A model generated the notes under the pieces. The model worked only from the letters and a program-made list of their open reading frames with translations, was not told the origin of the DNA and made no database searches. From Filobasidium wieringae (lineage: Eukaryota > Basidiomycota > Tremellomycetes > Filobasidiales > Filobasidiaceae), in NCBI GenBank assembly GCA_001600055.1, contig BCIV01000018.1, positions 496,001 to 560,000 on the forward strand: 64,000 nt of DNA, read 5' to 3'. This document shows positions 10,779 to 60,585 of the stretch, piece after piece. Each line of letters opens with the position of its first letter. Positions within the stretch are counted from its first letter, which is position 1. The translations under genes were made by a program, and so were the position numbers.

Positions 10779-11425
10779 TTGGCTTGATCACATCGCTCAA
10801 AACACCCATAGAATACCCTTTACCACGACATGTCTCGAAAATCTCACGATACCAACATAAACACAATCTTTCACGACAAAAAACACCCCCTGCACGACGA
10901 GAAGGGCCGGGTTGGGGCTTTTGGCAAGACGTCGAACGCTTCCCTCCCGTGTATCTATCCTTCTCACTTCCCTCTCTCTTCATACTTTGTTCTCTGGTTC
11001 GACGATTCCGATATATAGACTTGTTTCCTAGCCTTGTATCGATTCCCGAGCTGAATACGATGGTTATTTCGATGTACCTTGATTGTCCAATTGGTGGTCG
11101 TGGATTGGAAAGGATGATGCGATGATGATAGCGTGCTTATCCGAGTTTCACGAAGCGGGAGCCGAGAGCCAAGGGTGAGCAATACGCCGCGTCGGTGCCG
11201 GAATTCGGGCGGGGGACGAGCGATATCGACCGTGAATCGTGAATCGTTTGGATTGGACGCTCGTGCCACAACAGCGACACCGTTTGAGCGGGCACAGGTG
11301 CTCTCACACACTCACATACACACACACCCACACACCTACACTCACATCACATACCACACCACTCTCTCTGACCCGACTCATGTACAGCCTGCGATACCTT
11401 ACAATCACGAAATGACGCCAAGATC
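10779..11425. other. Intergenic region with CA-rich microsatellite
   Basis: Separates the AGS1 stop from the MED13 start on the same strand. It contains an imperfect CA/ACT microsatellite at about 11301-11361 directly upstream of MED13. No further gene is seen. Confidence 0.6.
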
Positions 11426-14400
11426 ATGCCACCAGCGATCACCTTGAACGTCCATAACAACACAACACGGACCGTATCGCTACAACCTATCATCATGCCA
11501 GAAACTCGATCTCGGTCAAACCGACGCAAGATCAGTATTCAAGGTAGCCTCGATCGGTTGTACTACCGTCGATTCATCTTGAGCGGGAATGATGCGGTAC
11601 AGACCAGCAAGGGGAAAGAGAAGGAGCCTACGAGAGGCGTTGCTTCGTTAGCGATACGAGTAAGATCGGAATGGAAAGACGACAGTCATGCGGACGTTTT
11701 CGTTTGGGTCGATCAAACTCTGGAAGATCTGAGTTCCAAGTCGATCTGGTTGTTTAGCTTTATCCAAGGGAAGAATGAGGAATACGCTACGGCGGCGGGT
11801 ATCGATACCTCTGATCTCGTGACCGCGAATGACCGACAGTCCACCAAGCTACCTCTCAACGCCCACGGGTCTATCGACCTACGTATGTTCTTGAATGAAG
11901 ACAAGCATGCCAACTGCCCAACATGTGGACCCAACAAGCCTCTCCGTCATCATCCTCGTCAACCAGGGGATCAAACTGATCTCAAAGACATCTTGGTCGG
12001 CCAAAAGATTCCCCATTTCGCTCAGATATGGAATCGCTTCGGAAACGCTTTGGCGGATCATTTTGCCTGGCAAGAAGGCTGGGCCCCAGAAAGACTGGCC
12101 ATGATCGTTTCGGCAGAAGAACCTCCTGCACCCCGGGTCATTGTCAGGCGGAAGAGATCTACCAAGAAGATAGAGGTCCACTTGATCTTGCTGGATTCGC
12201 ATAGAGGGAAATTACCTATGCCTCCGGAAGACCCTGAACGATGGAATGTGTGGGATCGGGCGGACTCCGGAAAGATCCAGACGCTATGGCCAACGAGGAA
12301 AAGGGCGCTTCATATTCGACGGATTCGAATGAGAGATGATCATTTGGAAAAGATCATACATGACTTTAATCGAGCGATAGGGAGGAAGAGCGCGATGTCT
12401 CTGAAAAGAGAGAAGATATGGGGGTTTCTGTGGTTGCCTGCAGATCAAAGAGAGGTTGGGGTTCCGAAGAAGGGGGATAAGGGTTGGTATTGCGTATGGC
12501 CTCTTTCTTGGCTGGTTACGGACAATATTACTGGCTTGAAACCTGTCCAGTCTGTATCGACTCCAAATCATCTGGATCAGCTTCAGAGGATTGTTCCGTT
12601 CGGTTCTGAGGATGGGATGGGAGATACCTTGGTATTGCTCGATCGATTACGAAAGGGAGATACCAAGACGGACGAAACACAACCTTACCAGAACGAAGAA
12701 GCGAGGATGTGTTCAGACTATCTGCCCGAATTGAAAGACCAAAGTGGACTACCGTCCCTGTCGGAGATGCAGTCCTGGCTGACTTTCGATTCCGCTATGG
12801 ACGATCTGGCTGAAACCCCAGCCGACCCTACACCTCCTTTCCGGTCGGACAACGATCACCTAGCTCCAGTCAACCACGATTCTGTGGATGCCATCTCGAG
12901 TAAAATCTTATCTCCTACTGCAAATCCGACGCCGGTTGGGCAGCGGGAGTGGGAGATGCCAGGATTCTCGATTTATGACCATCAGGATGATGGGGATGGG
13001 GATATGGTCACGGACAACGATTTCGATTTCTTCGATGCGCCTCATGCTCATACTGGGATTTTCGATGGGTTCAGCTACGAAAAGCCTGAAGAGGTGCCTT
13101 TGGTTGTCGCGAATTACAAGGAGCGGGAGGAGAATACGCCTGGCGTTTCATCTGACCATGGCTACGGGGGAGGAATCAAGGAAGATTGGAAGCCTATACA
13201 AGCAGAGTATGATCCAGCTCCTCCCTATATCGAACAAGCTTCAGTTCAGACGGAGGAGGAGGAGGAGCATTTGAATATTGTTTCTCCCATGCAGCAACAG
13301 CAACCCGACTCGGACGAATTCGACGATTTGTTTGGGGATCACGACGAGACGGACAGGGAATCAGTGGCCGATATCGCTGAAGCGCACAACGATGATGTCC
13401 GTTTCATGGAAGTCGACGAAGATTCTGCGTCAATGAACTTGCCGGAATCACCTACTCCGGAGCAGGAGAAGACTCCTTTACTCATCAAGTCTTCATTGCC
13501 GCGGTCGATCCCGGTTCTGCCGAAATGGATACCTCTCGAATACGCCATTGCATCCCCTTTTTTACCGCGGGACACCATCGATCTCGTGTCTACCGATATG
13601 CTGCCGTTGATATTCAAAAGCTCACAAGAGAGCACTTCGCTCAAAAGGTCTAGATCTACTGACCTGGCGGATTTGTATGGAGACGGACTGGTCAAAAATA
13701 GGAAACTATATCGAACGGATCTTCAATCGCAAACCAATCAACGTAAAGTTTCACTACGTCGAGGGTATCATGAGAGTGATCAGGATGACCGATCTCATTC
13801 AGACAGCGAGGAGGATCCATTGAGCGACTTTGAGGACTTTTCCGACATGGAAGATTCGTCGAAGAAGCGCCCTATTTCGAACTCCCGACCGTCTGGACTA
13901 GCAGGGAAGTCCGATAGCTTTGACTTGGGCTCATTCCCATGGGTATCCCTCGAAGCTGTGCTTGATCTTGTTGGATCGGCGACACCTTTAGGGCTGCAGT
14001 TGACTGCCACTGAGATTGATCTGGTCCAATTGGAGGAAGCATACGAACATCTAGAGCCTGCGACTCCCCTGAATTCCAGCATGAAAATCGTAGACTCGGC
14101 TGTCAAACCTAGTTCCCCCGCATCTATGGGATTTCAGAATTGGCTGCTATCTGCAATGCTGGAGGATCCAGACCTTCGAGCCGCAATCACTCAAGAGGGC
14201 CCTCCTGCTCTGACTTCCGGGACGAATGTCTTCCGGCCTGCGTCCCGCATTCGAATGAGGTATCAAGGCAGACCGGTCGAGCTTTCAGCTACTGCTTTCA
14301 AGCTTTGGAAGGAGCTTGGACTGACGCCGTCCTCCGGGCCAAAGGAATCCTCCTTATTCGCGATCTATGACGATAAACACTTGCACCCTTCGGCTGCTGA

Positions 14401-15753
14401 GCGTTGGTATGAGACGCTTTCAGCGGCTTATAAGGTGAGCTTATGCTACTACCATTCGTGGTACGGATCAAAATGACTGACCATCTTCTTCGAATAGGGT
14501 TCTGGTTACGGAAGCCTGGTGCAGCCAGGTGAACTATTCGAATCGACTTCTTTGGTTACAGCAGATCTTCCTCGCATCGATAATGCTCTTCGTAAGTGAA
14601 AATCGTTTATAATCTAGCGTAGATACGATTCTCACCGACGTTATCACCAGGTGTTATACAACGCCATCGCTTGAAGCATAAACCGAACATCATCCTCATC
14701 CTCCTTCCTCCGAACACAAAAGATCCATCGACAACGCTTCTAAGCCTCATGGAGAAGTGTCACGAGCAATTTAATACCGCATACCCCGCATACCCTCATA
14801 CCAACACTGTATTACAATTTTCTTTCTTGGATAGCCTTCATGACTCCGACTGTATCGACCGTCTTGCTTCTACGATCTATCACAGGCTTCCATCTCATAT
14901 GCCACCGGGACTCTCAACTACTGTATCCAACACCAGCATCGCATCGGCAAACATGCCTTCTTTCACGCTCTCTCCATCTGGTCTCAATCCTGCGTCACTA
15001 TTATCGTTGCGTTGGCCAGCCCCATCTCTTTCTCCGTTGGATACCGGTCGGATCCTTCATGTAGCGTACGGCGTTGGACGACAGGGGCAACTGTTCGTGA
15101 CATGTTTGGACGAGCTGGGCGAAATATGGAACGTCCAAACCTGGCAATCATCCAGTACACCAAATTCGCCAACAACTAGAATTGGAACGGTTTGGACGTT
15201 CATTAACAACGTTATCCGCTGTACGAACATAGAATGGCGAATCGTTGTGACACGTATAGGCAGCTGTTCAAATCAGGAGCTGAGTGGTAAGCATAGCCAG
15301 TAATTCCAATCGCTCATTGAGACTGACGGACAAAGGAGTCCTATAGCTTGGCAGACGGTGATGCAGAAAGCTTGCCTTCTCGGACCGTCGACCTTGCATT
15401 TCGAGCTATTACAATGCGATCTCGGGAACCCATACCAACTCCAGTATGATGGGGGACAGTGTGTCACCGAGTCGAAAGCGGAGGTGACCGTGGATCCTGT
15501 CCTCATTGTTAAAGGAACCTACGCCATAGGTCGGAAGGAATCTGATCGGTATCAGGTTGACCATTTGTTTTCGGCCTCCTCTCAAAACGGTACCATCTGT
15601 CAAACGGACACCGAGTTGATGAGAAGCATCCGAGCTAGTTTCAACGGTTTGCAGGTACTTGGTCACCTGCGATGGGGTTTCCCTGTGGACAACCCTCTTC
15701 CGCCGCATCTTCAACTCATACAGATGTACCAGAACGTTGTTGTCGCTGCCTAA
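11426..15753 (+). CDS. MED13: Mediator kinase-module subunit Med13
   Basis: Large subunit linking the Cdk8 kinase module to core Mediator in the nucleus (yeast Srb9/Ssn2). Exons 11426-14434, 14498-14591, 14651-15286 and 15347-15753 join in frame to 1381 codons. The C-terminal third carries the signature: an LPP..K..TTLL segment, then QLFVTCLDELGEIWNVQTW, then WRIVVTRIGSCSNQEL followed across an intron by AWQ. These match the Med13 C-terminal domain pattern of a D.GE motif and a (V/I)V..(K/R)(I/L)G....E...W motif. The middle is acidic and disordered (about residues 480-850). The N-terminal half has a CVWPLSWLVTD segment like the WP-L motif of Med13. In-frame ATGs at 11426 and 11498 both fit; I took the first. 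The family name rests on the C-terminal half. Confidence 0.75.
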
Positions 15754-16442
15754 TCTGTTCGTTATATAAGGGACGGCGATAATACGCGATGTCGCTATGT
15801 CTCGAGACCGCCTTGTAGCCAGATGGCCAAACGACCTTTTCAAAATTCTTGCAAAGCAGGTCATTAAAGACAGCCGAATGTCAAATTTTACAAGCGGACT
15901 GGCGCTCTTGATCTGCTGCCAAAAGGAGACCGAGCACTTCGATATAACAGGCAATTCTGTGTATGAGATCCCCGCTGTCTGAGCAGAAATATTCAAAGAT
16001 TTCGGCTCTGCTTTATCGAGACGGTCCCCCTTCCGTACCAATTCTGCCTTTAGAACATCGACTTGGCGACGAGGATGACGACTGACAGACTTGGTCAGAC
16101 CTGACATATTGGCGCAGGGTACACTGAATATTGAAAATAGGGGAGCTCGAATGTTATGATGATTGAATCTCGCATTGGTGTGACAGTAGCCGAGACGGCG
16201 TCGAGGCCGTGCCAGTACATCATGAACGGACAAGGGGAACTTGTACGAGCAGGAGAATGAGGAGAACCAGGACGCCGAGCCGAGAGACGAGACGAGGCTT
16301 GATGCATTCATGCGAGTGGCTCGCCAATCAGCTGGCTCGGTACTCGGTACAACAAGTGTAATTCGTGCCCGCCCTATACGTGGGATACTTGACTGACAAG
16401 GAGGCCGCGACTGCTCGATACAGACATAAGCCACAGTCAACG
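15754..16442. other. Convergent intergenic region
   Basis: Lies between the 3' ends of MED13 (+) and the PAN-like gene (-). A long minus-strand open frame crosses it and the last MED13 exon, but it has no recognisable domain and I treat it as chance. It may hold the 3' end of the PAN-like gene if an alternative last intron is used. Confidence 0.45.
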
Positions 16443-17119
16443 TCATATTCTTTTATCGTTACAGACCGATAACGTACCAGCTGCAGCATTTTGATCGCAA
16501 GTGAGTCCTCGCGCGGCACCTTGCCATCCGTTGACAGTGACGGGAAAGTAACCGTCGATCTCGGTAAGGGTGTAACAAACCTGAGTGTATTTCCAAGTGT
16601 CGGCCACGCAAGCTGTTGAGCGTGTAAAAGGTTTGATCATTAGCTCGGCAATCCTACTGAGAGAGACGTGGGCAACTCACATGGCATGCTCTGACACAAC
16701 TGGTGACAAGCCTCACGACTGGCAATGCCTGTAGTTTGTGCTGCGGCGGGATAACTAATGTCCAAGCCGGTATAAACGGCCCAGGGCGTGTTTCCGGTAG
16801 AAGTATAAGCAGAGCAGTTTGAGGCAGGGAAATTCGAAGCGCTGGTTGTGGCGGCGGATGCAGCGGCGGTCGTGGTTGCGGAGGTGGTGGCTCGTTTTGC
16901 TTTCGGATTGTCTCTCAGGTCGATGAGCTTGCTCCGAGTGACGTGATTTAGTCGGCGAACAGGAGCCTGGGAAGAAGTGGCGGGGATGATTATGGGTAAC
17001 TTGGTCTGGAATGTAGAGAGGAGTTCGGATCGAGAGCGAGGTCTGAAGCCAACTCTGGTGGAGGACGCCGTCATGAATAGACAGGCAAGACTGAGGAATA
17101 GGAGGATGCGGGGAAACAT
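16443..17119 (-). CDS. Small secreted protein with PAN/apple-like cysteine domain
   Basis: Exon 1 runs 17119-16681 and exon 2 runs 16612-16443, giving 202 codons. The N-terminus (MFPRILLFLSLACLFMTASS) is a clear signal peptide. An Ala/Thr-rich spacer follows. The last ~100 residues have spaced cysteines (NCSAYT, EACHQLCQSMPSC, TWKYTQVCYTL, GLTCDQ), the spacing seen in PAN/apple-type modules that bind protein or carbohydrate. The intron falls inside this module and rejoins SMP-SCVADTW. A donor-like GTACGT sits 32 nt before the stop, so a third exon reaching to about 16328 is possible and the C-terminus is uncertain. Family assignment is by cysteine pattern only; the protein could be a lineage-specific wall or secreted factor. 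Confidence 0.55.
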
Positions 17120-18381
17120 GGTGTAAGCTTGTAGGAGGAGGGACTGGAGGAAGTGAGGTGTAAGAATGAGTTGCGGGAAGAGTCGGCCGGCCGGGGAGGG
17201 TTGGTACGAGAGAGGAGATAGAGATAGGCCTGAGTGTGATGGCGAGATACCCAAGAGAAAGAGAAATGGGATAGAAGGGAGGTGGGGGATAAGGGCGAAA
17301 GATGGATCGGGAGAGAGGAGCGAAGGACAGGTGAAGGTAAAGATGACAAGGGCGATCACTGATGAATTACATCGCGGTCGATCCTGCTTATATAGCCACA
17401 TCGATTTGAGCGCAGACCAAATCTAGCCAGGACCCCGTTCATGTGTAAGACATGCGGAGGTTGTGCACTGTGAACGCACGACAGGATAAAGAGACCGTAG
17501 GCGAGTATGTATGTACAAGTATTCGAATATAGCTATACATTGACTCTGTATAGCTATATTCGAACAGACAGTCATCAAGCAGTGACAAAATAGATCGGAT
17601 GTAATGGCCTCGATGCATTAGATCCGGTGCGCGAAGGCGCTGAGTTGGTGAGTAACCTGCGGATCTGTCTTTTCCGGTTTCACATCTCTTCCTGAGACAA
17701 GATCTTCGAAGTCTTCGAAGGCCGACGGTTGATCAGGAACAGGATCTGGTTAGGCCGAAGTATGGGTCGATTGCCACCGATACGGGCATCCTGACATTCA
17801 CATGTCCTTTCCCAACTCAGCGTGCTGGATATCCACCTTGGTTTTTGGTGGCCCCTTCTACTTGAGCTACTTCAAGGCCGTTCATCAACACTGAGAAGAC
17901 ATACTTCCGGTCCGATGGTAATAGTTGTCAAGCCCCTGCACATCACCATCGAACAGAGTCATTGGTATGACAATAATGGTGTCCATTGACACTCCTAGCC
18001 ATAAGCATCAGATAAATATCTCATCATCAGTTAGAGGTAGATGCGGATCTTTGGCCTCCTAGCAGCTTGGTGGCGGACGTTCACAAATCAGAGCTGATGC
18101 CTACTACTATTTCATGATGTCTTAAGACCTCGAACATGATGAACCTTGATACCGTTGGGCCCATTTCTTTCCCTTGCCGGTGCGCCGGGTTGTGTGGGAG
18201 GGAGACAGATCAGGCCATCCGCTGAGCGATTTGGATTGCCTTTGATACCGCAAACATACCACCGAAATGAAATTTGAGGAAGTCACTCGTCCAGCTACCG
18301 ATATCCATCAAACATACTCAACTTTGGAACCTAACAAAGAGAAGCTCAGGGATTATGCATAAACGTCATGTTAAGTCAATC
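17120..18381. other. Intergenic region, 1.26 kb
   Basis: Upstream of the PAN-like gene and downstream of SEC63 (both minus strand). No protein-coding gene is supported. Its main feature is the perfect hairpin listed separately. A short CTTCGAAG repeat occurs near 17705-17720. Confidence 0.5.
17522..17564. repeat. Perfect 18-bp inverted repeat (hairpin)
   Basis: Left arm TTCGAATATAGCTATACA at 17522-17539 and its exact reverse complement at 17547-17564, with a 7-nt loop. It lies about 400 bp upstream of the PAN-like gene start. It is too perfect to be likely by chance, but its role is unknown (cruciform, paired binding sites or transposon footprint). Confidence 0.9.
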
Positions 18382-46638: not shown

Positions 46639-49151
46639 TTACGATTTGGCCTGATACCCTCGAATAGCATCGACCAACCTCCAGACCCCCCAAGCACCAG
46701 GATCAGGTATATCCGCCTTGAGCAGATCTTCCTGATTCACATAACTACCCCTTCCAGCAAGCGCTACGAGCTTCTTCGTCTCGTTTGCAGCTTCCAACGC
46801 AGCTTCCGCCGCACCGTTTATATCGCCCGGTTGGTTAGTGAGATGCTTGACATAGGCTTCCAAAGGATCGACGAGGGTTCGACTGGGCGGTCTAGCGCGA
46901 GTGACTGTTCGTGTATGAAAATCAGCTTCGCACAAATCACCTCGCCACAATAAATCTTGGCTCACATAGATAAAGATTAGCCAAAGCGCTCTCAGCAGCT
47001 TCCGACCAATGCTTCTCCTCGATCATTTCCTCTCCACCAGCTGCTATCCGGCCTAAAGCTGCGCCAAGGCCGGAGAAGAAGATACTATATAACGACCCGC
47101 TCGTCCCGCCCATAACCTCTTCCGCCGCCTCGGCAATAAGGTTGATATCACTGATCAAATTCTTCCCGTTGATCTTCTTCTCCTCGATCTCTTTGAGTAC
47201 ACCTAAGATGCTTGCCATCGATCAACCCCAGATCTTATCGCCTATTTGAAGTACGGACTGAGACTCACCTTCCGCTCCGGACCTGAGGGTCAGGCCCGCA
47301 TCCCCATCACCAGCGATCACATCTTGCCTAGTGATCTCCGGTTCAGCCTCGACCACCGCCTCACAAGCGCGTTTCAACGCATTCAAGAATCCTTCAGGAT
47401 CATTAGCTATCCAATCCAAATCAAAGTAGAGTCCATGAGCCCTTGATCCTACCCAAAGTATCTCGCAAGGGACAACGCACCTCGACAAGCAGGCAACTCG
47501 GCCCTGATCTGTTCGACCTGCTCAACACGTTCTTCGACCGTTCCAGGTTCTGTGGGATTGTACCATCCCCAACCAGGAGCGGACGCTGGGGAATCGAGGT
47601 ATCGTAGGATATCGGATTTATCTGCTCCTGTTGATTTGTCACGAGGAAGGAGCAGAAGAGTGAGGGAGAACCCGGGGACGGAGAGGGAAGTCTTTGCGTT
47701 CGATGAATCGTCGCGAATCAATAGCTGGAATGTGTACGTGATGTGATGGTGGTCAAGGCTTACCATATAAGTTCCGTTTAGTACTCGAACAGGTCTGATA
47801 CCGTTTTTCCTCAACCAGGCGACACTTTCTCCGCAGATCGCTCCCATCTCCAACTCCGTCATTCCTCCCAAGTTATTCACGAGGAGGACGACTTCGTCCT
47901 TGCCATCCTCTATCGAGTCCCCAGATCAGTCTTCATTCACGCAGAGTAAAACGGCAACAGGGAGAAGAACTTACTGGCAAATGGAACGAAAGATCGATCT
48001 TCGTCCTCAGTCTCGGTGATGGAAGTCAACAACCCATCCACGAGCTCTGACATAGGAGGTGCCTTCTTCCTTGCGACACCGGATTCGTTATGAATCCCCA
48101 TACCCTACACATGGAGCTGAGATCAGTCCCGGTGTTATCTATTCACCACGCTGGAGTTCTTACCAGATCGATGTCCCCTGAAACAATTTCAGTCGGTTCA
48201 GCGTTAGTCCCAGGGACCTAGACAAGCAAATGAGATTCGAACGATCAGCGCAAAGTCATCGCTCTTACGTCTAGGTGGTGACTGACATAACAATGCTCCA
48301 ATCCAACACCATACGATCCTAAGTTGGCTGCTATGCCCTGAGCGATCTTTTCTACCTCGGGTAAGGATAGACCTTCTGCTGCAGCCGCCGCAGCTATTTT
48401 GTACGCAAGAACGGTTCCCGCCATTCCCCTGGTCGCCGTGGAAACATTAAAGTCAGGTTATGAAGGAGAAAGACTTGTACGGAAAGACTTACCGACGACC
48501 GACGATTCCTCCTTGCTTTTTGCCTACACTGACATCGTCCCCGATGAGGAGAACGCGGACGTCGGAATCGTTTATATGTTGAGCTTTTGCTTGTGACGCT
48601 GCTAGCCCAAAGTGCAGTGCGTCACCCGAGTAGTTCATCACTACTACAAGGACACTGGGGAAGGCGTGGAGGTAGACTTGTAAGTTTGCCTAATCTGAGT
48701 AGAAACAACAAAGAAACGGAACTTACCCAGACTTGTTCAAAACCCGGTCGATAGCCCAGCGGATCTGCTTGACATTGGGACTAGCAAAGACCGCTCCGCA
48801 GACCGCAGCGTCCAAGAGACCTTGTCCGACGAATCCAGCATGTGCAGGCTCGTGTCCCGATCCTCCACCGGAGATGATAGATACTCTGTTCTTCTCGGAA
48901 TCTGTTTTCTCCCTGTATACCACTGGAATGCAATCTGCATTTACTACTACGACTTCCGCGTTCAGAGGGGGACATGTTTTACGGACCTTTCGTTTGTGTG
49001 TTGACCTTTACGGTAGGGTTCTGAGCAGCAAGACCGACGAGGCAGTCAGAGACCAAGTCTTTTGGGTCATTGTGGATGTAATGACCTGTTCCACCTGGAT
49101 TAGCCTTCGAAAGTGCTAACGGTTAGAGGAGATTGACATACCTCGAGGCAT
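46639..49151 (-). CDS. DAK1: Dihydroxyacetone kinase (ATP-dependent, DhaK-DhaL fusion)
   Basis: Converts dihydroxyacetone plus ATP to dihydroxyacetone phosphate, for glycolysis and detoxification. Exons: 49151-49142, 49094-48987, 48934-48727, 48654-48493, 48428-48287, 48217-48164, 48104-47975, 47909-47764, 47724-47481, 47406-47269, 47202-46966, 46904-46639; total 614 codons. The DhaK half has [39 protein letters not shown] and LEHCYVPG (the His-containing active-site loop), then MGIHNESG and LVNNLGG. The DhaL half has [17 protein letters not shown] (Mg-ATP aspartates, about 436-452), [16 protein letters not shown] and [18 protein letters not shown]. The first exon is only 10 nt (MPR plus one base). 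This is the first gene of the proposed cluster; two CGG-N12-CCG elements lie in its promoter. Confidence 0.95.
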
Positions 49152-49211
49152 TTTATGAGCTGATATCAGGACGGAGCGGAAAAAGCTTGACGAGTGTTCA
49201 ATGATATGAAC

Positions 49212-49229
49212 CGGTTGTCCAGAATTCCG
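49212..49229 (+). promoter_or_regulatory. Weak copy of the cluster CGG-N12-CCG element
   Basis: CGGTTGTCCAGAATTCCG, 61 bp upstream of the kinase ATG. It has the same 18-bp length and CGG/CCG ends as the stronger copies, but the core agrees only in part. Confidence 0.4.
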
Positions 49230-49319
49230 ATCCCTTAGAAGTGATTGTTATATTGTTAGTTATTTATCATCCTCGGAGGATTCTGAAGGTTGAGATTATC
49301 AAAGAGCTTGGCCTGACCT

Positions 49320-49331
49320 CGGTTCGGACCG
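49320..49331. promoter_or_regulatory. CGG-N6-CCG palindrome upstream of dihydroxyacetone kinase
   Basis: CGGTTCGGACCG, identical to 27618-27629 upstream of gluconokinase. Its last two bases overlap the start of the cluster element at 49330. Confidence 0.35.
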
Positions 49332-49347
49332 GCCGTGCCTGAATCCG
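49330..49347 (+). promoter_or_regulatory. Cluster CGG-N12-CCG element, kinase promoter
   Basis: CGGCCGTGCCTGAATCCG, 179 bp upstream of the kinase ATG. It shares 15 of 18 bases with the copy at 52996 (reverse strand) and 16 of 18 with the copy at 58408. A candidate binding site for the adjoining Zn2Cys6 regulator. Confidence 0.65.
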
Positions 49348-49591
49348 TCATACACACCTCAGATCGCATATCCACTTTCCACAATGGACGTCAATCGATG
49401 TGATGTCCGTTCGACGCCCCATGCCCCGACTCATATCTAAAAGTGGTGTCAATCTGACACAAGCCAAATCAGAGGATATGTTGTTCTTCAGATTAGCATG
49501 TCTTGGGATTGTTCTCGAGTATGTCATCGATCTGTGTCATTTCACCCAGAGTACAATCAAGGATATCTGTGTGATCCCACTTGGCATTGGG

Positions 49592-52500
49592 TCATCCAGC
49601 CGCATCCCCGCTCAACCCCTCAGCAGCCATCACCTCGTTCAAATACGCTTCGGCCCAAGCGATATCAACAGGAAGCAAGTCTTGCTCCAGCACAGCTGGC
49701 ATTTGGTTGGTATTGACGACTTCGATCGGATTTTGTCCCGTCGATGGCGGTCCGCTTGTCAAGTTTGGATAGACGAATGTATAGTGGTAGTCCGAGGGCG
49801 AGTTGAATGTGCCGGTCAGACCGAAACCTACCACTGTATTGAGGATTCATCAATACAAGCCTTCTCTCGTAGCTGATACCGGAGAGTACTAACGATCATT
49901 CGACAACCACTGACGCGTATCATCCCTCCCGTCCCCTACCTCATCATCATACCTCTCCCCGATCTCCCCATCTGCGACCCCCGTCCCGCCCGCTTCAAGG
50001 GCCTCCGCTCTCTGCGTAAGCGCCCGATGAATGTAACTTACTCCCTTCCAGAACCCCTCAAGCGAAGTTAAAGTATCTACCAATCGATGATAGTTTGCGC
50101 TTGCCGTTGAGATCACATGCGCGCGTCCGGCGGAACGGGAGACATTCGTTCGACCGATGTCACCGGATTGACGAGTGGATTGTGCGACTTTGAGGTACAT
50201 TATGAGATGACAGAATTTTGGCTCGAAAAGATCTGGACTTACGGAAAGCGCGAGCGGCGGTATAGATTGGATAGTTGATCCATGGTTGTGAGATCGCTCT
50301 CGGGTCGATCTGGCAGTGATCGCACGTACAACCATGTTTCATCAGTACCGGTGTGCGGTGTCAATTCCACCACGAAACCTACCAACTCTGCAAAAGCTAC
50401 GATATCCAGAATACTCTTCGCCGAGCTCACTGAAATTTCCTTGCCATCGATATCTTCAGTGACGCTCGACCCGAAATGATCCGTCAGCAACAAAGAAGGG
50501 TCGTGCGCCAATATGATCAGCCTAGTAAAACATGATCAATATTGATGTCCTCATGGCTGTAGATCGGAAACAGAGCTGATATTTACGTATGAAACCAAAG
50601 CTAAAAACGAGTCAATAAACAGTTGGAAAAACACGCGGACCGAGCACACTCACATGCAGTAAAACAAACGCTCCTCCCCTATCAAGCGGTACGTACGCCT
50701 GAAAAGTGATCGTCTGGAAGTTCAACTCCGGGGGTAAACTCATATTGAAATCGTTCAATGCTAATTGAGTGGAATGTAGAGGGACTATATTCCCAGATCG
50801 ATCGGATTCGACCAAGATTCGAGATGTCTTGCTGACCAGTCCGAAGATCTCGACGAGATAAGGTAAAGGGTCGGGAAGATGTCGTCCGTTGGAGGCGATG
50901 AGAGGAGGGAACGCAGGGATGGAAGTACCTGGTAATTGGTACATCCCTGCTCTACCAGCTGCATAGTCAACTCAGCATGTTACGCAATGACAAGGATTCG
51001 CATTTCAAATAAGACGTACTGCCGATCTCCATGATAGCGTCCATCATGCTCAGGGACCAATGTAACCTCTGGCAACGCCACAACGATTCCGTATCTTGTG
51101 GATTCAGCAGTTGATCTTGCGGAACGCGATCCAGTCCTGCATTCGAATTTCATTGACCATAAGAACGTCGGCATCGATTTCATGTGGATGGGTCATCTCA
51201 CTGACCAAGATCCTGTGCCATCCTCATCGCCATCCCTGAATACCTACGAGAACTGTCAGCTCGACCAGGCTTGTTGAGTATTGCTCGAAATCATACGACG
51301 TACATCCAAAGTCCCTATCCCAAGACAACAATAATCACCAGTAAGCCTGAATCCCTTGCCCCGTAAAACCCATCGCACACACTCACACTATCCCTATCCG
51401 CCCCAAATTCGAACCAACTGATGATCAACAGAGTCTCCACCAACTCCAGAGTAGCCATAGCAAGTCTATGCCCTACGTCCGCCTTTGCTCTTGCCATCCA
51501 AGAATCCGCTGGAGATTTGATCCCTTCCCCCAAGCTCTCTAGGTACGTTTCGTCAGAATATATAGGAGAGTATCGGGCGGCTAGAGCACAGATGGCATTG
51601 ATTAGGAAAGAGGGACTGGATCCTATTTGATATGCGGTGGCAACGGGGGGCAGGGCGAGGGAAGGGAAGAAATAACCGAAATGACGGTGAAAGATGGGTA
51701 GGAGATGTTGTATTGCGCTTATATGCTTGATGATTCGTGACATTAACGCCTCTGTCGAATGGGAGTTGAACATCACGTGGAACTCACAGGTACATCCCCG
51801 TCCGGCTCTGGTTCTACGATAAGAGGAATGGATGAACCTTGTTCTGGAGAGACTGCCGGAATATTGGTCGGCGAAGATGGAACAGAAACATCACACCGGA
51901 CACGTTTGAATCCGGGTTCGATTGCGGTTGCACCACTACCGAATGGTTTGAAGCATTTACACGAGGATACAGGAGCGAGACATCAGGGAGAAGCATTGAT
52001 ATTGTGGTCGTGCAAAGTAATCAAGCATGAGTGTGAGGCGCATTGGAAAGGTAATCAGAGGACCGTGCTCACAAGTATCTGATCAAATCGGTACCAACCG
52101 GAACAGTGGCCATTAGTTTCATCCTCGATCGTAAGATTTTGTAGTACCCATCCTCACCTAAAATAAGGGATCCTTATCTTCGAAACGATTCGCCCTCCGC
52201 TCCTGACACTGACAGGTGAAGGTCCGTTCAAGTTGGATACGGTCGTGTTGAAATCATTCGCAGCGGAAGTGTAGCCAGTTATATCGTGAAGCTTGGTTGA
52301 GGCGTAGTCGGAAGCTGAAGTCTGGCCGGGGAATGAGGAATGGGTATTGATAGCAGGAGCGACATGTGAAGAGGTACTGGCTATGAGGTGATCTGGCAGT
52401 TTACCGGTACAGGAAGTAGGAGTAGTTTTCGACCGTTTATCTGACGAGGATTTTGGTTCCGATGATCCCGGGATATCATCACCCCCAGCGACATTCAGCT

Positions 52501-52771
52501 TATTCCGTTGATCTTGACCTTCTCCCTTTCTTTTCCTCTGCGAAGGTTGGGTCCAATGACAAACCTTGCCGGATTTCTGACACCCCGAGCAAGTAGGTTT
52601 CTCTCCTGAACATTTGATCTTCCTAGTACGACACTGAACGCATGCCATGTTTGTCCTGGTAGGTTGGTAGTTTTCTAGATCGATCGTGAAATGAGCTAGA
52701 CGAGCTTGCATCTCGGTCGGGAAGACGAGAGGTGTTCCCGTGGGAAGGACTTCCGAGGGGTCGTCGCCCAT
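49592..52771 (-). CDS. Zn2Cys6 transcription factor, putative cluster regulator
   Basis: Fungal binuclear-zinc regulator of 784 codons. Exons: 52771-52158, 52078-52073, 51935-51788, 51725-51387, 51314-51304, 51243-51206, 51136-51020, 50958-50654, 50600-50587, 50521-50349, 50296-50243, 50187-49894, 49833-49592. The zinc cluster (residues 44-71) reads C-x2-C-x6-C-x6-C-x2-C-x6-C in ACVQCRTRKIKCSGEKPTCSGCQKSGKVC. The fungal-specific regulatory domain follows: FRYFGATAIEPGFK, ALAARYSP, GLWMYSGMAMRMAQDLGLD, LWFHTLIILAHDPSLL and NYPIYTAARAF. Three exons are tiny (6, 11 and 14 nt), and each is required to rebuild one of these motifs. It is divergent from the dehydrogenase across 373 bp that contain the shared CGG-N12-CCG element, so it may regulate itself. 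No target family is known to me. Confidence 0.88.
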
Positions 52772-53144
52772 GTTTCCTGCCCCGGATTTCGCGGTGGGTA
52801 TTAACTTGTACGTTGTTACAGCCTCTACAAGGCTCAGCTAGTTCATAATCCTGAAAGCATTGAAGAATTTGGGAAAGAAACGGTTTGTGAACGTTTCCTT
52901 GTCGAGGCAGGAGATGACGGAAATAGATATGCGAAATGACAACATATGCGATCTGAAGCGGGACCATGCGTTTTATATGCGGGGCTCTCGGTGTTCGGAT
53001 TCAGGAACAACCGCGAGTTCATCGCTCAACTGGCGCCGGGATTGCGATTTAGATATAATTCCACGCTGCTCATCTTGGAACAACTCAAGGTCAAGCGGTT
53101 GGTTTCCTACCTGATACAACACATTTAGACTCATACAACACACC
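52772..53144. other. Divergent promoter, regulator / dehydrogenase
   Basis: 373 bp between two divergent ATGs, holding the cluster element at 52996-53013. No other gene is supported; the short open frames here lack domains. Confidence 0.6.
52996..53013 (-). promoter_or_regulatory. Cluster CGG-N12-CCG element, regulator/dehydrogenase promoter
   Basis: On the minus strand CGGTTGTTCCTGAATCCG. It lies 132 bp from the dehydrogenase ATG and 225 bp from the regulator ATG. The core TGA-W-TCCG and flanks match the copies at 49330, 58331 and 58408. Confidence 0.65.
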
Positions 53145-54302
53145 ATGCCTTCCGTAGAGAACGTCGCTCAAAAACTCTCAAACGGGTCTACCGCCGTTGA
53201 TCCTGCCGTCGCGGGTCAAAACGAAAACGCTAAACGTAAGTATTCATTGACACTGACGAGTCACCATCTTCGCAGCCCTGACTCGATATACATAGCCGCC
53301 CTCGCTCAGGTCAAAAGCGATGCTCTCTTCTCCCTCGCCAACCAAGGAATCATCGTAACAGGCGGAGCTCGAGGTCTAGGTCTCTGCGTGGCAACGGCTC
53401 TCCTCGAATCCCACGCCTCCCATGTCTATTGTGTCGATGTCCTAGACAGTCCCTCGAAAGAAGAATGGGCTATTGCCGAAAAGGTTGCAGCTCAGGGAGG
53501 TGCCAAGATCGACTACAGAAAATTGGATATCACGGATGAAGAGGCTGTGAAGAGGGTGATCAAGGGGATCTATGATGAATGTCAATACGATGTTTCGGGT
53601 TTCTTTGGAGCTGCTGGGATTCAGCAGATGGTACCTGCGCTTGATTATCCTGCCAAGGACTTTAGACGAATCATGGAAGTCAACGTCACTGGTAAGTCGC
53701 ATCTCCCATCTGAGAAAGCGTATCAGAACTCTAAAACCGTTCGTTTTCTTATTAGGTACTTTCTTGACCATCCAAGCTGCCGCAAACGAGATGAAGGAAC
53801 GCAACATTAAGGGTAGTATCGTAATGACCGCCTCCATGTCCGGTTCCATCGCCAACAAAGGTCAGTCCACTAGTCTAAGAATATAAGAACCATTTGACCG
53901 ATACTCTCCTATTCATGTTGGCGTACAGGATTGACTTGCCTGGCCTATAACACCTCCAAAGCGGCTTTGCTCCAGATGTGTAGGAGCGCTGCGGCCGAAT
54001 GGGGTCACTATGGGATCAGAGTAAACGTAAGTTAACTCTTCCTCTTCACTAAATTCGATACCCGTTGACAGTCATATCCCCCTTCTCAGACTCTCTCCCC
54101 GGGATACATCCGAACAGCCATGACGGACGGTCTCCTCGCAACCCGTCCCGACCTGGAGGAAGAATGGTTACGAGGAAGCATGCTCGAGCGTCTATCCACC
54201 CCCGATGAGTTCAGAGGCCCGGCGGTCTACCTCCTCAGTAGGGCTAGTAGTTTCATGACGGGAGCGGATCTGATTGTGGATGGAGGTCATACTGCTTTCT
54301 GA
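53145..54302 (+). CDS. Short-chain dehydrogenase/reductase, sugar-alcohol type
   Basis: Exons 53145-53235, 53296-53691, 53756-53860, 53929-54026 and 54090-54302 give 300 codons. A classical SDR: cofactor motif TGGARGLG (about 52-59), LDITDEEAV, GFFGAAGIQ, VNVTG, IVMTASMSGSIANKG, catalytic YNTSK (Tyr about 204, Lys about 208), RVNTLSPGYIRTAMT, and the end SFMTGADLIVDGGHTAF. The N-terminal extension of about 45 residues and the whole layout resemble fungal D-arabinitol/mannitol dehydrogenases and L-xylulose reductases, which interconvert ketoses and polyols. The exact substrate is inferred. Its start faces the regulator gene across a promoter bearing the shared element. Confidence 0.9.
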
Positions 54303-55436
54303 GGGAAATAGGATTTTGTAATATCGGCTATGGGTACTGTAATGATTAGCATGGGAATCGATTCTGGTATACTGGGAAACTCTATCATTGACTTGAACCG
54401 CCCTGAACAGGCGTTGTCAATCCGCGGCAAATACGTCCCGACATCACTCCTTGTAGTCGGACGCACCTCCTTCGGGCAATCCCAGCACTATGGAGCTACT
54501 TATCCTATGCCTATACTTGATATCGAACGCTTGTTGATGGATGCGTCCGACTATCCTCTATTCGATAACACAGCCCCTGTAGGGTTCCGATATTCTTGCA
54601 TGACACGATCGGTCGTTGACAAGCGTAGTAACGCGTAAATCGATATCTACAACATTGTGAAACATGCACGTCAAATGAAACACTTTCGATGGAATTTTGA
54701 CAATTGCAAGAAGCAGCGCTTCAAGATGATAAGCTGAACCATTGATCCCCCCCAATATTGTCATGTTCAGCATCTAAACAGATCACTCCTATTCTGACCC
54801 AAATGTCCTTTTTGCTGCAATGCAGTCTCTCCAACCTCTCTTCAATTTTAGAAATCGCCACTCATCTTGGCAGGTTGTTCCTCATCTCCTGATTGGCAAC
54901 GACCCATTCCGTGGAGACGCGCAAGTGCGTCGTGCTATGAATACACAGCGTCGCTTAGTCGATTGTCGACTGACACTGAAATCGCTCATCATCCATCCCT
55001 CGACAATCAGAATAAAATAAGATCTTATCAAAACGTTGATCTGTCATTGCCACTGGCAGTCAACAAATCAAGAGATGACGAGAATATGACAATAAAGAAC
55101 GAGATGGAAATAATGGCCAAAAGATTGGGCAGTCGTGACTGTGACTTTGAGACCCTCCATCTTGGACAGCTATGCGTTAACATGCATGGTTTCCGATGCC
55201 AACTTCTATCTCCCTCGATGTCCCAGAGTTTCTTCCCAAAAGAGCATACAAGGCAGAGAAGCTTCTGTGGATGTGTGCTCGATCCGTCCACTCCACAGCA
55301 ACCGCCATAAGAGCTCTACACCAAAACAGACTAGCGAAGAAAATATTGCAAGTTCACTTGAGCGCCATATAAACATACACCATATACTACATAACAACAT
55401 TGAATGGACGGTACTTGCTATCTGCTTCTAATCTAA
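54303..55436. other. Convergent intergenic region inside the cluster
   Basis: 1.13 kb between the 3' ends of the dehydrogenase (+) and the transketolase-like gene (-). Several open frames of 60-150 codons occur, but none has a recognisable domain or paired splice sites. I see no gene and no copy of the cluster element. Confidence 0.5.
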
Positions 55437-58192
55437 CTAGTGGGAGACGGTCCCGAGCAATAATTCCTCGAACTCGCCAACACGCGGTAAACGACCTGCT
55501 TCCTGCCATTTTGAGCCCCAACTATCAATTTTACGTGCCATATTATCTGGCCCAAATCCAAAGTACTCGTATAGCTGTTCTTGAGGAGCGGAGTGACCCT
55601 GATTTGCAGCGTACTTAATGACTGCAAGCGATATTGTCAACTGGCATGAAAGACTTACGAAAGTCTGCATGGAGAGGGAAGCATGCGCATATCGCGCCCA
55701 ACCGTAGGAAGCCCAAGCTTCAATTGCAACGATCAGCGAGGTGCTGGGGATCACCAGCTCTTTGTATCCGGCATCCTGAACGTCGAAATGCTTTTGCGAG
55801 GGCATCGAGACCACTCGGACGTTGTCAAATTTAGTCACCTTTTTGGCTGCGTCGATCGCTCGGGTCACCTCTGCTCCGGTCGACACGATAGTGAGATCGG
55901 GTTCATTCGACCCCTTGCTCCAGATGACATAAGCACCTCGAGCCACCTCGCTTCTATCGCTCCCTTCGAGAAGGGGTACCGGTTGACGACTGAGAGTGAA
56001 GATGCTTGGCGTATCGGAAGACTTGTCATCCAGTGCCAAGAGCCACATCCCCATACATTCCTCGGCGTCTGCAGGTCGAATCAAGTTGATATTCGGTAAA
56101 GCTCGGTAAAAGGTGGCCAAGGCGATTGGCTGATGGGTTGGACCTGGAATAATCAGAAGTCTCAATCAGCATAAGAACCAATCACCTGATTTGCCAGAAT
56201 ACCTCACCGTCTTCGCCGATACCGATAGAATCGTGAGTTGCAATGCCGATAAATCGCAACTTCTGCAGAGCCGCCATTCGCGCGGCGGGCGCGGCGTAAA
56301 TCCAAAACATAAAGAAGGTTGACATGATGCTAGATAGGGAATCGGGATCCGTCAGTTGGGGTCCCTTTGCGCTTTTCCTGACATTCATTACTTACGGAAT
56401 GAACATTCCCTTGTGGTAGGCGGCGATACCATTTCCAAGACCGACCATAGCAAACTCTCGAATACCATAACGAATTTGTCTGCCCGAATAGTCACCCAGA
56501 CCGGACTCGGGCTAAGTAAGGAACGATGAAGCACTTCAGGTACAGTCGACACAATCGATCAAAGGGATACTCACGTTTTGAAACTCCACTTGACCTGCGA
56601 AATTGACGAACGTCGATTCCAATAAATCGGCCGAACCCGCTACAAAGCTCTTGTTCTGCGGTACGAGCGCCTGTACCGCTATCCCGCTCGATTTCCTTGT
56701 AGGTTGAGCCGCACTGGGCAGGTTCTCTTTGCTGGGAAGAGCATCCCTCCATCCATCCGGTGCAAATCGTCCTTGCAGCCTCGCTTCGAACTCGGCGTTG
56801 AGCTCGGGATACTTTTCTGCGTACTGTTTCATAGTGGCGTTCCATTTGGACTGAGCTTCCGCCCCCTTTTGCTTGCACCCTTCGAAGTATTCGTACACTT
56901 TGGCAGGGACGTGGAATTTCTTGCTAGGATCGAAGTCGAGGGTTTCCTTGACGTAGGCGACCTCGTCTGGTCCCAATGCTTGACCATGAGCGGGACCCGA
57001 GTCGGCTTTTCGGGACGAGAATCCAATGACGGTTCGGATGTTTACCAGCGTGGGTTTTCCCTTCAAGCTCTTGGCTTTGTCAAATCCAGCAAGGATAGCA
57101 GCGAGCTACGAGAAGATGGACGAGATCAGTTGTGGAACCTCCGACCGACTATATCGAACACTCACGTCGTTTGATCCGTCATACACATCGACGACGTTCC
57201 ATCCTTGAGCAATGAGCTTAGCAGAGGTGTCCTCGGTGAAACAGTTGTCAATAGATCCGTCCACCGTGATTCGATTGTTATCGTACACGAGAATTAAGTT
57301 GTCCAGCCCGAGATGTCCAGCCAATGAGATCGCTAACAGATGTGACAAGCATAATGGACGAGTTAGGAATATTGTATACTGACACAAAAAGAGGAAGAAG
57401 AACTCACATTCTTGCCCGACACCTTCCTGGAGACATCCGTCACCGGTGAAACACCAGATCTTGTTATCAACGACCTTCAAATCGTCTTTGTTGTAAGTCG
57501 CTGCGAGTTGCTTGGAAGCAATAGCCATTCCGACGGCATTTGAGATACCCTGACCGAGTGGTCCGGTAGTCACTTCGATACCTAATGAAACGGAGGTACG
57601 AAATGGGTCAACAGGATGTGAGATCACTTCGAATGTAGGAGAGGATTACCTGGATATTCAATTTCGGGATGTCCAGCTGCCATTGATCCACTGGTAGCAG
57701 GAGAATGGTACATTCTGATCTGATCCAGAGTCCAAGCCTCGTATCCCGAGAAATGCAAGAAGAGGTATTGGAACAGGCACGCATGCCCGGCCGACAGAAC
57801 GAATCGATCTCGGTTGAACCAGTCGGGGTCAAGGGGGTTGTAGGTCATTTCGTATCGCCAAAGAGCGATTCCGATAGCCGCCGCTCCCATGACTGTTCCA
57901 GGATGTCCTCCCTTGTACTGCGGTGCGTGCTTGAGATCAGGATAAGACCAGACGAACCATGCCTTGTCTGTTGCTTACCTCCTGACATAGATCAGCAGCG
58001 AGACATCGGATGGTGTTCAGCACGATCTGTTCTTCTTTGGGCTGATAAAGAAAAGGTGAACACTGAGCTCCGGCGTCGTCTAGACCTTCAAGTCCAGACA
58101 CTCACTGAGGCGACCTTGTCGGTTGTATGGGCATCCTTCTGAATCGCGGTAGAGTGACCGTGTGAGAGCGCGTCTTCAGTTTTAGCGATCAT
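55437..58192 (-). CDS. Transketolase-family enzyme, dihydroxyacetone-synthase-like
   Basis: TPP enzyme of 724 codons. Exons: 58192-58106, 58041-57979, 57917-57650, 57581-57408, 57332-57166, 57105-56575, 56511-56396, 56329-56208, 56143-55659, 55598-55437. Motifs: [40 protein letters not shown], the TPP motif [23 protein letters not shown] (about 188-220), [69 protein letters not shown] and IRPADAEE. A usual transketolase reads HGAPLG and lacks the [19 protein letters not shown] style; here the loop reads PAHGQALG, as in fungal proteins annotated as dihydroxyacetone synthase (xylulose 5-phosphate + formaldehyde to glyceraldehyde 3-phosphate + dihydroxyacetone). It lacks a peroxisomal -SKL-type end (ends TVSH). 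The true donor/acceptor pair is unknown. Confidence 0.88.
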
Positions 58193-58330
58193 GTTAGGGA
58201 ATCGTGGATCTTGTGTGTGTGTGTAGAGTGTTTGGTATGAAGAGCTGCAGAGTTGGTTCAGATTGAATCATAAAGTCGGAGTTGCTACTTTATGAATCTG
58301 GAGCATCCACCTTGTTCACCTAATCAAGCG

Positions 58331-58348
58331 CGGCTGTTCCTGACTCCG
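58331..58348 (+). promoter_or_regulatory. Cluster CGG-N12-CCG element 1, transketolase-like/transporter promoter
   Basis: CGGCTGTTCCTGACTCCG, 139 bp from the transketolase-like ATG and 277 bp from the transporter ATG. Confidence 0.65.
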
Positions 58349-58407
58349 CAACGCGAACTCCGATCAGTTCATGATCACGTGATTGCGATCTATGCGGTAG
58401 TTGCGCT

Positions 58408-58425
58408 CGGTCGTGCCTGATTCCG
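58408..58425 (+). promoter_or_regulatory. Cluster CGG-N12-CCG element 2, transketolase-like/transporter promoter
   Basis: CGGTCGTGCCTGATTCCG, 60 bp beyond element 1 and 200 bp from the transporter ATG. It differs from the kinase-promoter copy at two positions. Confidence 0.65.
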
Positions 58426-58624
58426 CTCGGTGCCCCGTTGCAATCTCTCCCCCGCACACGATGATACCGAACCGAAAACTGTAAGCGATCGGCATGTGCT
58501 TCAGACCGCACGATTAGCATATATAGCTGACACCATATGTCCAACTAATGTTTCACTCACTTGAAGGATCCAGCACACCATAACACCACCTACTACTCAA
58601 CACATCCTCCGACACGACTTGAGG

Positions 58625-60585
58625 ATGTCTACTACCTTACTGAGAGGTCGCGCTGTAAACTGGGCTATCACTGCTTGTTGCGGTTCCGCCTTCTTGTGAG
58701 TTTTTATTCTACCTGACCACGCGCTTGCAACGCTGATGTATCCGAATTACGCCTACAGACTTTTCGGATATGATCAAGGAGTCATGTCTGGTCTCCTGAC
58801 TGGTCGAGCATTCACGAACCAGTTCCCTGAAATCGATACCACCGATAGTGGGACAGGCTCCGCTTCTCTGCAAGGAACTGTCGTGGCAATCTACGAAATC
58901 GGTTGTCTGTTCGGATCATTGTTCACTTTCTTTTATGGAGAGAGATTCGGTCGTCGAAGAACGATCATGCTGGGATGTACCGTCCTTATGATTGGAGCTG
59001 CGATCCAAACCGCTTCTTACGGTATACCGCAGGTGAGCCGCAGACGTCTGGAGTCCCGCTTTCAGACCTTGACTGATGGAAGAGTATTACTGACGTAGCT
59101 CATTGTGGGGCGTATCGTCACTGGTCTGGGTAACGGTATCAATACCTCAACCGTCCCCGTTTGGCATTCCGAAACCACTCGAGCTCACGCGCGAGGTCGA
59201 GCTCTTTGTATCGAATTGGCCATCAACATCTTCGGAGTGATGTCCGCCTACTGGATCGATTACGGAATGTCATTCGTCAACAGCCAAGCTCAGTTCAGGG
59301 TCCCTCTTGCCATTCAGATCCTATTCGCTATAGTGACGATAGGATTGATCTTCGTCTGTCCTGAATCTCCCAGGTGGTTGCTCAAGCACGGGTACGATGA
59401 GAAATCACGAGCGGTCTTGGATCAATTATCGCTTCACCAAGGACTCGATCGTGCCGAGCTCCTCGGCGCCGAGTTCAACGATATTCAAACGGCGTTGAAG
59501 GAAGAAGAGGCGGCTACGCTCAAGGACAAGAACGGGAAACCCGTCTCTGGCGTTCGAGCTTGCTTCACTAATGGCAAGGATAGGTATTTCTATCGTGTCA
59601 TGCTCGGTGTTGGTTCCCAGTTCATGCAACAGTGAGTGCTTTCTTGCTGCGGCGCGGTTCTTCTCTCCACGCCAGTCTTGCTGACCTGATTGTTATGCGT
59701 AGATTATGTGGTATCAACCTCATCACTTACTGTACGTTCCTCTCTTGCTTCATTCCAATCGCGACTGACCAAAACTCCTCTTCTCGTTCGGAAACTTCTC
59801 TTACAGATGCCCCTGTGATCTTCGAGCAATCTGTAGGGCTGAGCCACTCAGTTTCTCTTCTCCTATCCGGATTCAACGGGATTGCCTATTTCATCTCATC
59901 GCTCATCCCCATTTGGTTGATTGATCGAGTGGGAAGGAGAAAACTCATGCTCTTCGCCGCTATCGGTCAATGCGCTTGTATGGCTGTTCTCGCCGGTACC
60001 ACGTCAGTCACGGGGAAAGGTACGGGTATCATTGCCGCAACCATGCTCTTCTTGTTCAAGTGAGTCTCGTGACCCGCGCGATCAGTCGCTATAGTGCGCT
60101 GACTTGACGTGGACAGCTTCTTCTTCGCCGTCGGATTGCTCGCTATTCCTTGGTTACTTCCGTCCGAGTACGCTCCCTTGCCTATCAGAGCACCAGCTGC
60201 AGCTCTGGCTTCCGCAAGTAATTGGATCGTAAGTTCTCACATAGGATATTTCACGCAACCATCCTCACAACCTCACTTCCCGCTCTTGCTATAGTTCACA
60301 TTCCTGGTGGTCGAGATCACTCCCGTTTCCATCAGGACTATCGGGTACAAGACCTACATCTACTTCTGCGTCTTCAACGCCTGCTTCGTTCCCCTCATAT
60401 ACTTTGTCTACCCAGAGACGGCTCGACTCAGCTTGGAATCGATCGACCAACTGTTTACTGGACCGAAGGTCCTCTTGCATCTGGATCCGCGGGATGAGAT
60501 CGTGCATAACCGAGATAACGAGGAAACTTTCCCTCAGAATGATGATAAGGCCTATTTGGAGCATGCCGAGAGCGGTCGATCCTGA
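58625..60585 (+). CDS. MFS sugar transporter
   Basis: Exons 58625-58695, 58759-59032, 59099-59631, 59703-59731, 59807-60059, 60117-60228 and 60295-60585 give 520 codons. Sugar-porter signatures in order: LLFGYDQGVMSGLL (TM1), GERFGRRRTIMLG after TM2, GRIVTGLGNGINTSTVPVWHSE, PESPRWLLKHG at the end of TM6, QLCGINLITYYAPVIFE (TM7, rebuilt over introns 3 and 4), DRVGRRKLM, and the PETARLSLE end. Twelve membrane segments are expected, at the plasma membrane. Specificity (hexose, pentose or polyol) cannot be read. It is divergent from the transketolase-like gene and shares two CGG-N12-CCG elements, so it is probably the uptake component of the cluster. Confidence 0.93.

Follow-up and report, generated by a model that had tools for sequence, protein, structure and literature searches.

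What unites five neighboring genes for a sugar porter, a polyol dehydrogenase-like enzyme, a dihydroxyacetone-synthase-like transketolase, a dihydroxyacetone kinase, and a Zn2Cys6 regulator is the question raised by a 64-kb stretch of the Filobasidium wieringae genome (C18:496001-560000, referred to below as the window; the genome comprises 33 contigs and 19.76 Mb). The three promoters that serve these genes share an 18-bp element with CGG at one end and CCG at the other. At a probability of roughly 0.7, this element can be read as the operator of a five-gene, pathway-specific regulon that is bound by the Zn2Cys6 protein encoded in the cluster. The cis-element itself is well supported; the putative binding step is mostly unproven, and the interpretation built on it is plausible.

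A search of all 19.76 Mb identified exactly four exact copies of the 18-bp consensus, CGGYYGTKCCTGANTCCG, every one of them in the three promoters of the cluster and all within 9.1 kb (Table 1). A preliminary description of this DNA had listed these four strong copies and had considered them restricted to the three promoters. Their positions were confirmed, no other place in the window comes within three mismatches, and the restriction holds genome-wide, the regulator's own promoter being among the three. Fourteen of the 18 columns of the element are identical in all four strong copies, compared with none of the 40 flanking columns; in the six pairwise comparisons, 14 to 16 of 18 positions agree inside the element and 1 to 10 of 20 in the flanks. 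Because the flanks do not align, the element represents discrete, sharp-edged sites and not duplicated DNA, and the duplication of promoter DNA was rejected on the same grounds. The interior is not symmetric, and the element is therefore more than a triplet pair. Its inner stretch, GTKCCTGANTCCG, occurs nine times in the genome, at the four cluster sites and at five other places, none of which has the CGG at the left end.

The CGG...CCG triplet pair is present in all four strong copies, as well as in the weak copy at 49212. N12 is the preferred CGG-CCG spacing in the cluster promoters, where CGG-N12-CCG occurs five times in 1245 bp versus 0.26 expected, and the remaining 17 spacings between N3 and N20 account for seven matches together; the inverted CGG triplets with fixed spacing that had been proposed earlier are thus borne out. 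The Poisson probability of five N12 matches, given the rest of the window, is ∼8e-6, a figure that is descriptive more than independent, since four of the five matches are the already known sites. A single CGG-N13-CCG match, off this spacing, is located at 58490-58508 in the transketolase/porter promoter. As for the weak copy, which the preliminary description had set apart from the others, it does keep CGG-N12-CCG; its interior is lost, and it is without significance on its own because four other places in the window match or exceed its matrix score of 11.8 (12.7 twice and 11.8 twice).

Matches to the consensus in the genome comprise 4 exact ones, 1 with one mismatch, 18 with two, and 222 with three mismatches (the last number obtained by subtraction from the total of 245), compared with 0.03, 0.70, 18.1, and 245, respectively, expected from an order-4 Markov model simulated over 31 genome equivalents. 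The model was trained on 190 kb of DNA, a nonrandom sample consisting of the 64-kb window with the sites included, 78 kb around genome-scan matches, and 48 kb of chosen stretches. The four cluster sites are the sole deviation from chance noticed genome-wide. Many random genomic copies outside promoters had been named beforehand as evidence against the element; the scan did not refute it, with no exact copies outside the cluster and degenerate ones at chance level. The difference between the 245 matches with up to three mismatches and the 165 found for a reversed-pattern control was considered as a sign of weak sites and rejected, as the Markov model predicts 264 and 166. Within the window, the strong copies account for all four matches with up to three mismatches; shuffled windows contained a mean of 1.0 such matches, and 1 of 100 reached four.

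The consensus used in these counts was derived from the very sites that it scored, which makes them circular. For this reason, a consensus-free test was run, in which the best quartet of 18-mers was sought with at least one from each of the three intergenic regions (49152-49591, 52772-53144, and 58193-58624; 1245 bp). The best quartet consisted of the four strong copies, with 46 of 54 matches. As controls, 1000 dinucleotide shuffles gave at most 42 matches, and 1000 triples of the same size, drawn from the rest of the window and mostly coding, at most 43, so that none of the 1000 in either set reached 46. In a leave-one-out analysis, a matrix built from any three copies recovered the fourth at a score with 0.03 to 0.32 chance matches per genome, as estimated from simulated sequence.

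TABLE 1. Copies of the 18-bp element and genes of the cluster, with positions in the window; distances run to the start codons of the modeled genes
Feature	Position	Strand	Sequence, context, or supporting matches
Strong copy 1	49330..49347	+	CGGCCGTGCCTGAATCCG; dihydroxyacetone kinase (DAK) promoter, ATG 179 bp away
Strong copy 2	52996..53013	-	CGGTTGTTCCTGAATCCG; promoter common to regulator (ATG 225 bp) and SDR (132 bp)
Strong copy 3	58331..58348	+	CGGCTGTTCCTGACTCCG; promoter common to transketolase (ATG 139 bp) and sugar porter (277 bp)
Strong copy 4	58408..58425	+	CGGTCGTGCCTGATTCCG; transketolase/porter promoter, ATGs 216 bp and 200 bp away
Weak copy	49212..49229	+	CGGTTGTCCAGAATTCCG; 61 bp from DAK ATG
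DAK family gene (Dak1 + Dak2)	46639..49151	-	PF02733 (1.3e-95), PF02734 (2e-34); TIGR02361 (588 bits, above cut-off)
Zn2Cys6 regulator with fungal-specific transcription factor domain	49592..52771	-	PF00172 (3.7e-10), PF04082 (9.2e-12)
SDR, polyol (arabinitol/mannitol) dehydrogenase-like, 300 aa, 5 exons	53145..54302	+	Structure and homologue matches
Transketolase, dihydroxyacetone synthase clade, 724 aa, 10 exons	55437..58192	-	PF00456, PF02779, PF22613 (all three domains); tree
MFS sugar porter, 545 aa, 6 exons	58625..60585	+	PF00083 (6.7e-100); TIGR00879 (282 bits, above cut-off)

The near-matches read in their genomic context were 7 of the 18 with two mismatches (including the inner-element match at C2:987064), three further inner-element matches (on C7, C8, and C9), and, separately, the one-mismatch match at C13:5268, the last of the five inner-element matches outside the cluster. 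Seven of the first ten fall in scored open frames, three of these with weak scores (8.3-11.9), and three lie outside; those at C8:936397 and C9:298270 are possibly intergenic. The one-mismatch match is found within a 654-aa open frame (C13:4090-6051), which, like another long frame of 513 aa near the same contig end (C13:1114-2652), has no Pfam match. The preliminary description had named enrichment limited to this cluster and sugar genes as a finding that would support the element. The first part stands, as exact copies are confined to the cluster; as for a possible extension to other sugar genes, the sole such match among those read is the two-mismatch match at C20:353034, the third of those outside scored frames, which has GH43 beta-xylosidase exons and a gene for a sugar porter nearby. 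It was counted as chance and not as a further member of the regulon in view of its apparent location, judged by eye, within the GH43 reading frame. In this region (C20:350000-356000), the GH43 exons are divergent from the MFS sugar porter.

A natural control is provided by a second dihydroxyacetone-synthase-like gene, located near a contig end (C1:9.3-11.9 kb) and 62 to 84% identical per stretch to the cluster transketolase. This gene adjoins a different, divergent Zn2Cys6 gene, which is the best match outside the cluster (1.1e-9) of P0001, the Filobasidium homologue of the regulator. The intergenic region between these two genes contains no copies of the element and one CGG-N13-CCG only; therefore, the element goes with the cluster regulator and not with dihydroxyacetone synthase genes generally. 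Also in this subtelomeric neighborhood (C1 ∼9263-18178) are part of a class II aldolase (PF01116) and a frame without Pfam matches that, judged by eye, looks like a sugar-acid dehydrogenase; the region may be a second cluster, for sugars or sugar acids, that has a regulator of its own. A GH10 xylanase piece (PF00331) was detected close to the contig end, at C1:6259-6669.

In the cluster regulator, the zinc cluster is encoded by the first exon and is intact (CxxCRxRKIKCSG), with the six cysteines invariant in all eight aligned sequences. Seven Tremellomycete homologues are 32 to 43% identical to it over 52 to 65% of the query; the exon model is approximate, with an unreliable middle and an empty exon (52158-52157), which lowers query coverage in the domain and homologue searches. 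The DAK gene has 11 exons in the best-scoring model, with alternative start codons possible, and a relative on C6 that is 39 to 47% identical. The best solved-structure match of the short-chain dehydrogenase/reductase (SDR) is 3r1i, an unnamed SDR (1.1e-41), followed by the mannitol dehydrogenase 1h5q (6.5e-39); among the matches listed, many homologues carry the name D-arabinitol 2-dehydrogenase in their source records, and most others are labeled hypothetical or SDR. A close relative is the partial SDR P0176, encoded on a JGI metagenome contig (43,656 bases); it shares 86% identity with the cluster enzyme over 56% of its length. No gene was assigned to the 1.1 kb (54303-55436) that separates the SDR and transketolase genes at their 3' ends. 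Homologues of the transketolase that are named dihydroxyacetone synthase are 45 to 74% identical to it, and many of the closest matches are named just transketolase. In a tree of 15 sequences, the cluster enzyme falls into one clade (support, 1.000) with the enzymes from Komagataella phaffii, Candida boidinii, Kuraishia, and Aspergillus, and the genome's transketolase on C15 (45 to 52% identical per stretch) groups outside that clade, with three named transketolases and Smittium. This phylogeny places the cluster transketolase in the dihydroxyacetone synthase clade.

The closest protein relatives of the cluster products come from Tremellomycetes (Filobasidium, Kwoniella, and Naganishia). Among the homologues listed, nine other Tremellomycetes have two or three of the regulator, transketolase, and SDR homologues on contigs of identical size. 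This is indirect evidence of linkage and, for the Kwoniella contigs of 1.5 to 2.5 Mb, indicates little beyond the same chromosome. Closeness by gene numbers is seen in three of them only: Filobasidium floriforme (regulator FFLO_06608 and transketolase FFLO_06611), Tremellales sp. Uapishka_1 (all three homologues, with SDR g780 and regulator g782), and Naganishia friedmannii (QFC21_006211 and QFC21_006212). The other species with two or three homologues on one contig are Kwoniella bestiolae, Kockovaella imperatae, Kwoniella sp. DSM 27419, K. sp. CBS 9459, K. dejecticola, and K. pini. These data suggest that homologues of the cluster genes may sit together in some other Tremellomycetes.

The proposed mechanism can be outlined as follows. 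The cluster Zn2Cys6 protein would bind the element, probably in dimeric form, so that each of the terminal CGG triplets, separated by 12 bp, is contacted by one zinc cluster; further contacts would be made to the asymmetric interior. In the presence of a polyol or ketose, the protein would activate the other four genes of the cluster (porter, SDR, transketolase, and kinase) from the three promoters and, through the copy in its own promoter, would feed back on its own gene. Such a self-feeding, pathway-specific switch is suggested because the zinc cluster of the regulator is intact, one site lies in its own promoter, and the binding of Zn2Cys6 proteins to paired CGG triplets is known, homodimers being usual (PMC5559640). 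Binding by the cluster regulator, the dimeric mode, activation over repression, and the inducer are all inferred. The polyol/ketose pathway is a proposal from the gene families: a sugar alcohol would be taken up and oxidized to a ketose, which would be cleaved by two-carbon transfer, followed by phosphorylation of dihydroxyacetone. A bolder version, which must be regarded as doubtful, is that a regulator devoid of a coiled coil reads both triplets and the asymmetric interior with near-absolute specificity and governs an undescribed Tremellomycete polyol/ketose pathway that uses a dihydroxyacetone-synthase-type transketolase and a dihydroxyacetone kinase outside methylotrophy.

Several observations weigh against the regulon as proposed. 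In addition to the circularity of the consensus, only four strong sites are known, and their asymmetric, non-palindromic interior does not conform to the simplest Gal4-like picture. The AlphaFold2 model of the first exon of the regulator has no helix past residue 67, and a Gal4-type coiled-coil dimer is not evident in it, the model itself being weak (mean pLDDT of 48.9, with residues 84-193 all below 50). In addition, the linkage of the homologues appears not to be universal, because the best SDR and transketolase homologues of Naganishia liquefaciens sit on contigs of differing size (888501 versus 765594); the absence of a Filobasidium SDR among the 120 best SDR homologues listed likewise speaks against a conserved neighborhood. 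On balance, the observation made in the preliminary description is confirmed and its interpretation partly supported.

An alternative that differs from the favored explanation in binding mode only is that the cluster regulator binds as a monomer or asymmetrically, as AlcR does and Pho7 may, with the CGG-CCG symmetry being incidental. The asymmetric interior and the low-confidence model, with no coiled coil evident, would both agree with such binding, and PMC5559640 discusses zinc-cluster sites of the monomeric and asymmetric kinds. Nevertheless, CGG and CCG are kept in every strong copy and even in the weak copy that lacks the interior, and the N12 spacing occurs five times versus seven for the 17 others combined. 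This alternative, though a serious rival, is unlikely.

It is likewise improbable that the element is bound by a factor encoded elsewhere, either an AtrR-type zinc cluster protein or a second factor that reads the interior, while the cluster regulator acts at other places or jointly with that factor. Conservation of the interior does exceed the needs of a triplet pair, and TGANTC within it resembles a bZIP core. The triplets and their spacing also coincide with the published AtrR consensus (PMC10294635). However, other sites would be expected for a factor that controls a wide regulon; exact copies are not found outside the cluster, degenerate copies do not exceed chance, and the five other genomic places with the inner stretch all lack the left CGG. 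Finally, it is very improbable that the similarity has no regulatory role and arose by chance or was left over from the duplication of a promoter segment: although there are only four copies with a consensus fitted to them, and the flanks of copies 2 and 3 agree at 10 and 8 of 20 positions, neither the shuffles nor the real triples matched the de novo score, and no flank column is common to all four copies.

Taken as the operator of the cluster regulator, the element allows a sequence-level prediction of a complete, closed Tremellomycete regulon, with one regulator, one operator type, and five genes; no Tremellomycete cluster of this kind was found, within the search terms used, in the titles or abstract openings of openly licensed (CC0, CC BY, and CC BY-SA) PubMed Central papers. 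If this reading is true, the element would predict the gene content of a polyol/ketose pathway, could provide basidiomycete yeasts with a tight inducible promoter, and would tie a dihydroxyacetone-synthase-type transketolase to sugar-alcohol catabolism.

The CGG-N12-CCG architecture itself is not new, as CGGN12CCG is given as the consensus of the AtrR response element of Aspergillus fumigatus in PMC10294635 and PMC12505884; beyond the AtrR papers, a search with three written forms of the motif found it in no other paper of the same openly licensed collection. The AtrR element is bound by a Zn2Cys6 protein and has its two triplets separated by exactly 12 bp, as does the cluster element, a putative target of the same type, and natural AtrR sites may fit the consensus imperfectly (PMC10294635). 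AtrR differs in acting on cyp51A, abcG1, and ftrA in an ascomycete, with the full motif in only a minority of its target promoters (PMC10294635). In contrast, the cluster element has a strongly conserved interior and sites restricted to one five-gene cluster; the comparison of the two is one of site sequence.

Gal4-type operators have a spacing of CGG-N11-CCG. The cluster element resembles these and other paired-CGG zinc-cluster sites (PMC5559640) in its inverted CGG triplets and fixed spacing and, here, in its position ahead of genes for sugar metabolism that have a putative pathway-specific regulator. It differs from them in having N12 and not N11 and a conserved asymmetric interior, and a coiled coil is not evident.

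In the erythritol clusters of the Yarrowia type, the erythrulose kinase belongs to the DAK family and the erythrulose-phosphate isomerases are of the RpiB type. A search of the whole F. wieringae genome, exon by exon, with PF02502 (LacAB_rpiB) gave no matches; the control was positive in 7 of 14 genomes, those 7 being bacterial, and thus provided no eukaryotic positive control. A Yarrowia-type erythritol cluster is disfavored by this absence of an RpiB family match. The Yarrowia lipolytica cluster (Euf1) is similar in combining polyol dehydrogenase and erythrulose kinase genes with short common promoter motifs, one of which, CGGAT (reverse, ATCCG), is contained in two of the four strong copies described here (PMC5557077 and PMC10935855). 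It differs in that its motifs are ATGCA, CGGAT, and CGGCTT and that 168 genes rise with Euf1, according to the same papers. The F. wieringae cluster has instead a single 18-bp element confined to it and a dihydroxyacetone-synthase-like transketolase.

In methylotrophic yeasts, dihydroxyacetone synthase and dihydroxyacetone kinase make up the xylulose monophosphate route. The same two enzyme families are encoded in the F. wieringae cluster, whose transketolase is 48% identical to the K. phaffii enzyme; here, in contrast to the methylotrophic route, their genes are clustered with those for a polyol-dehydrogenase-like SDR and a sugar porter.

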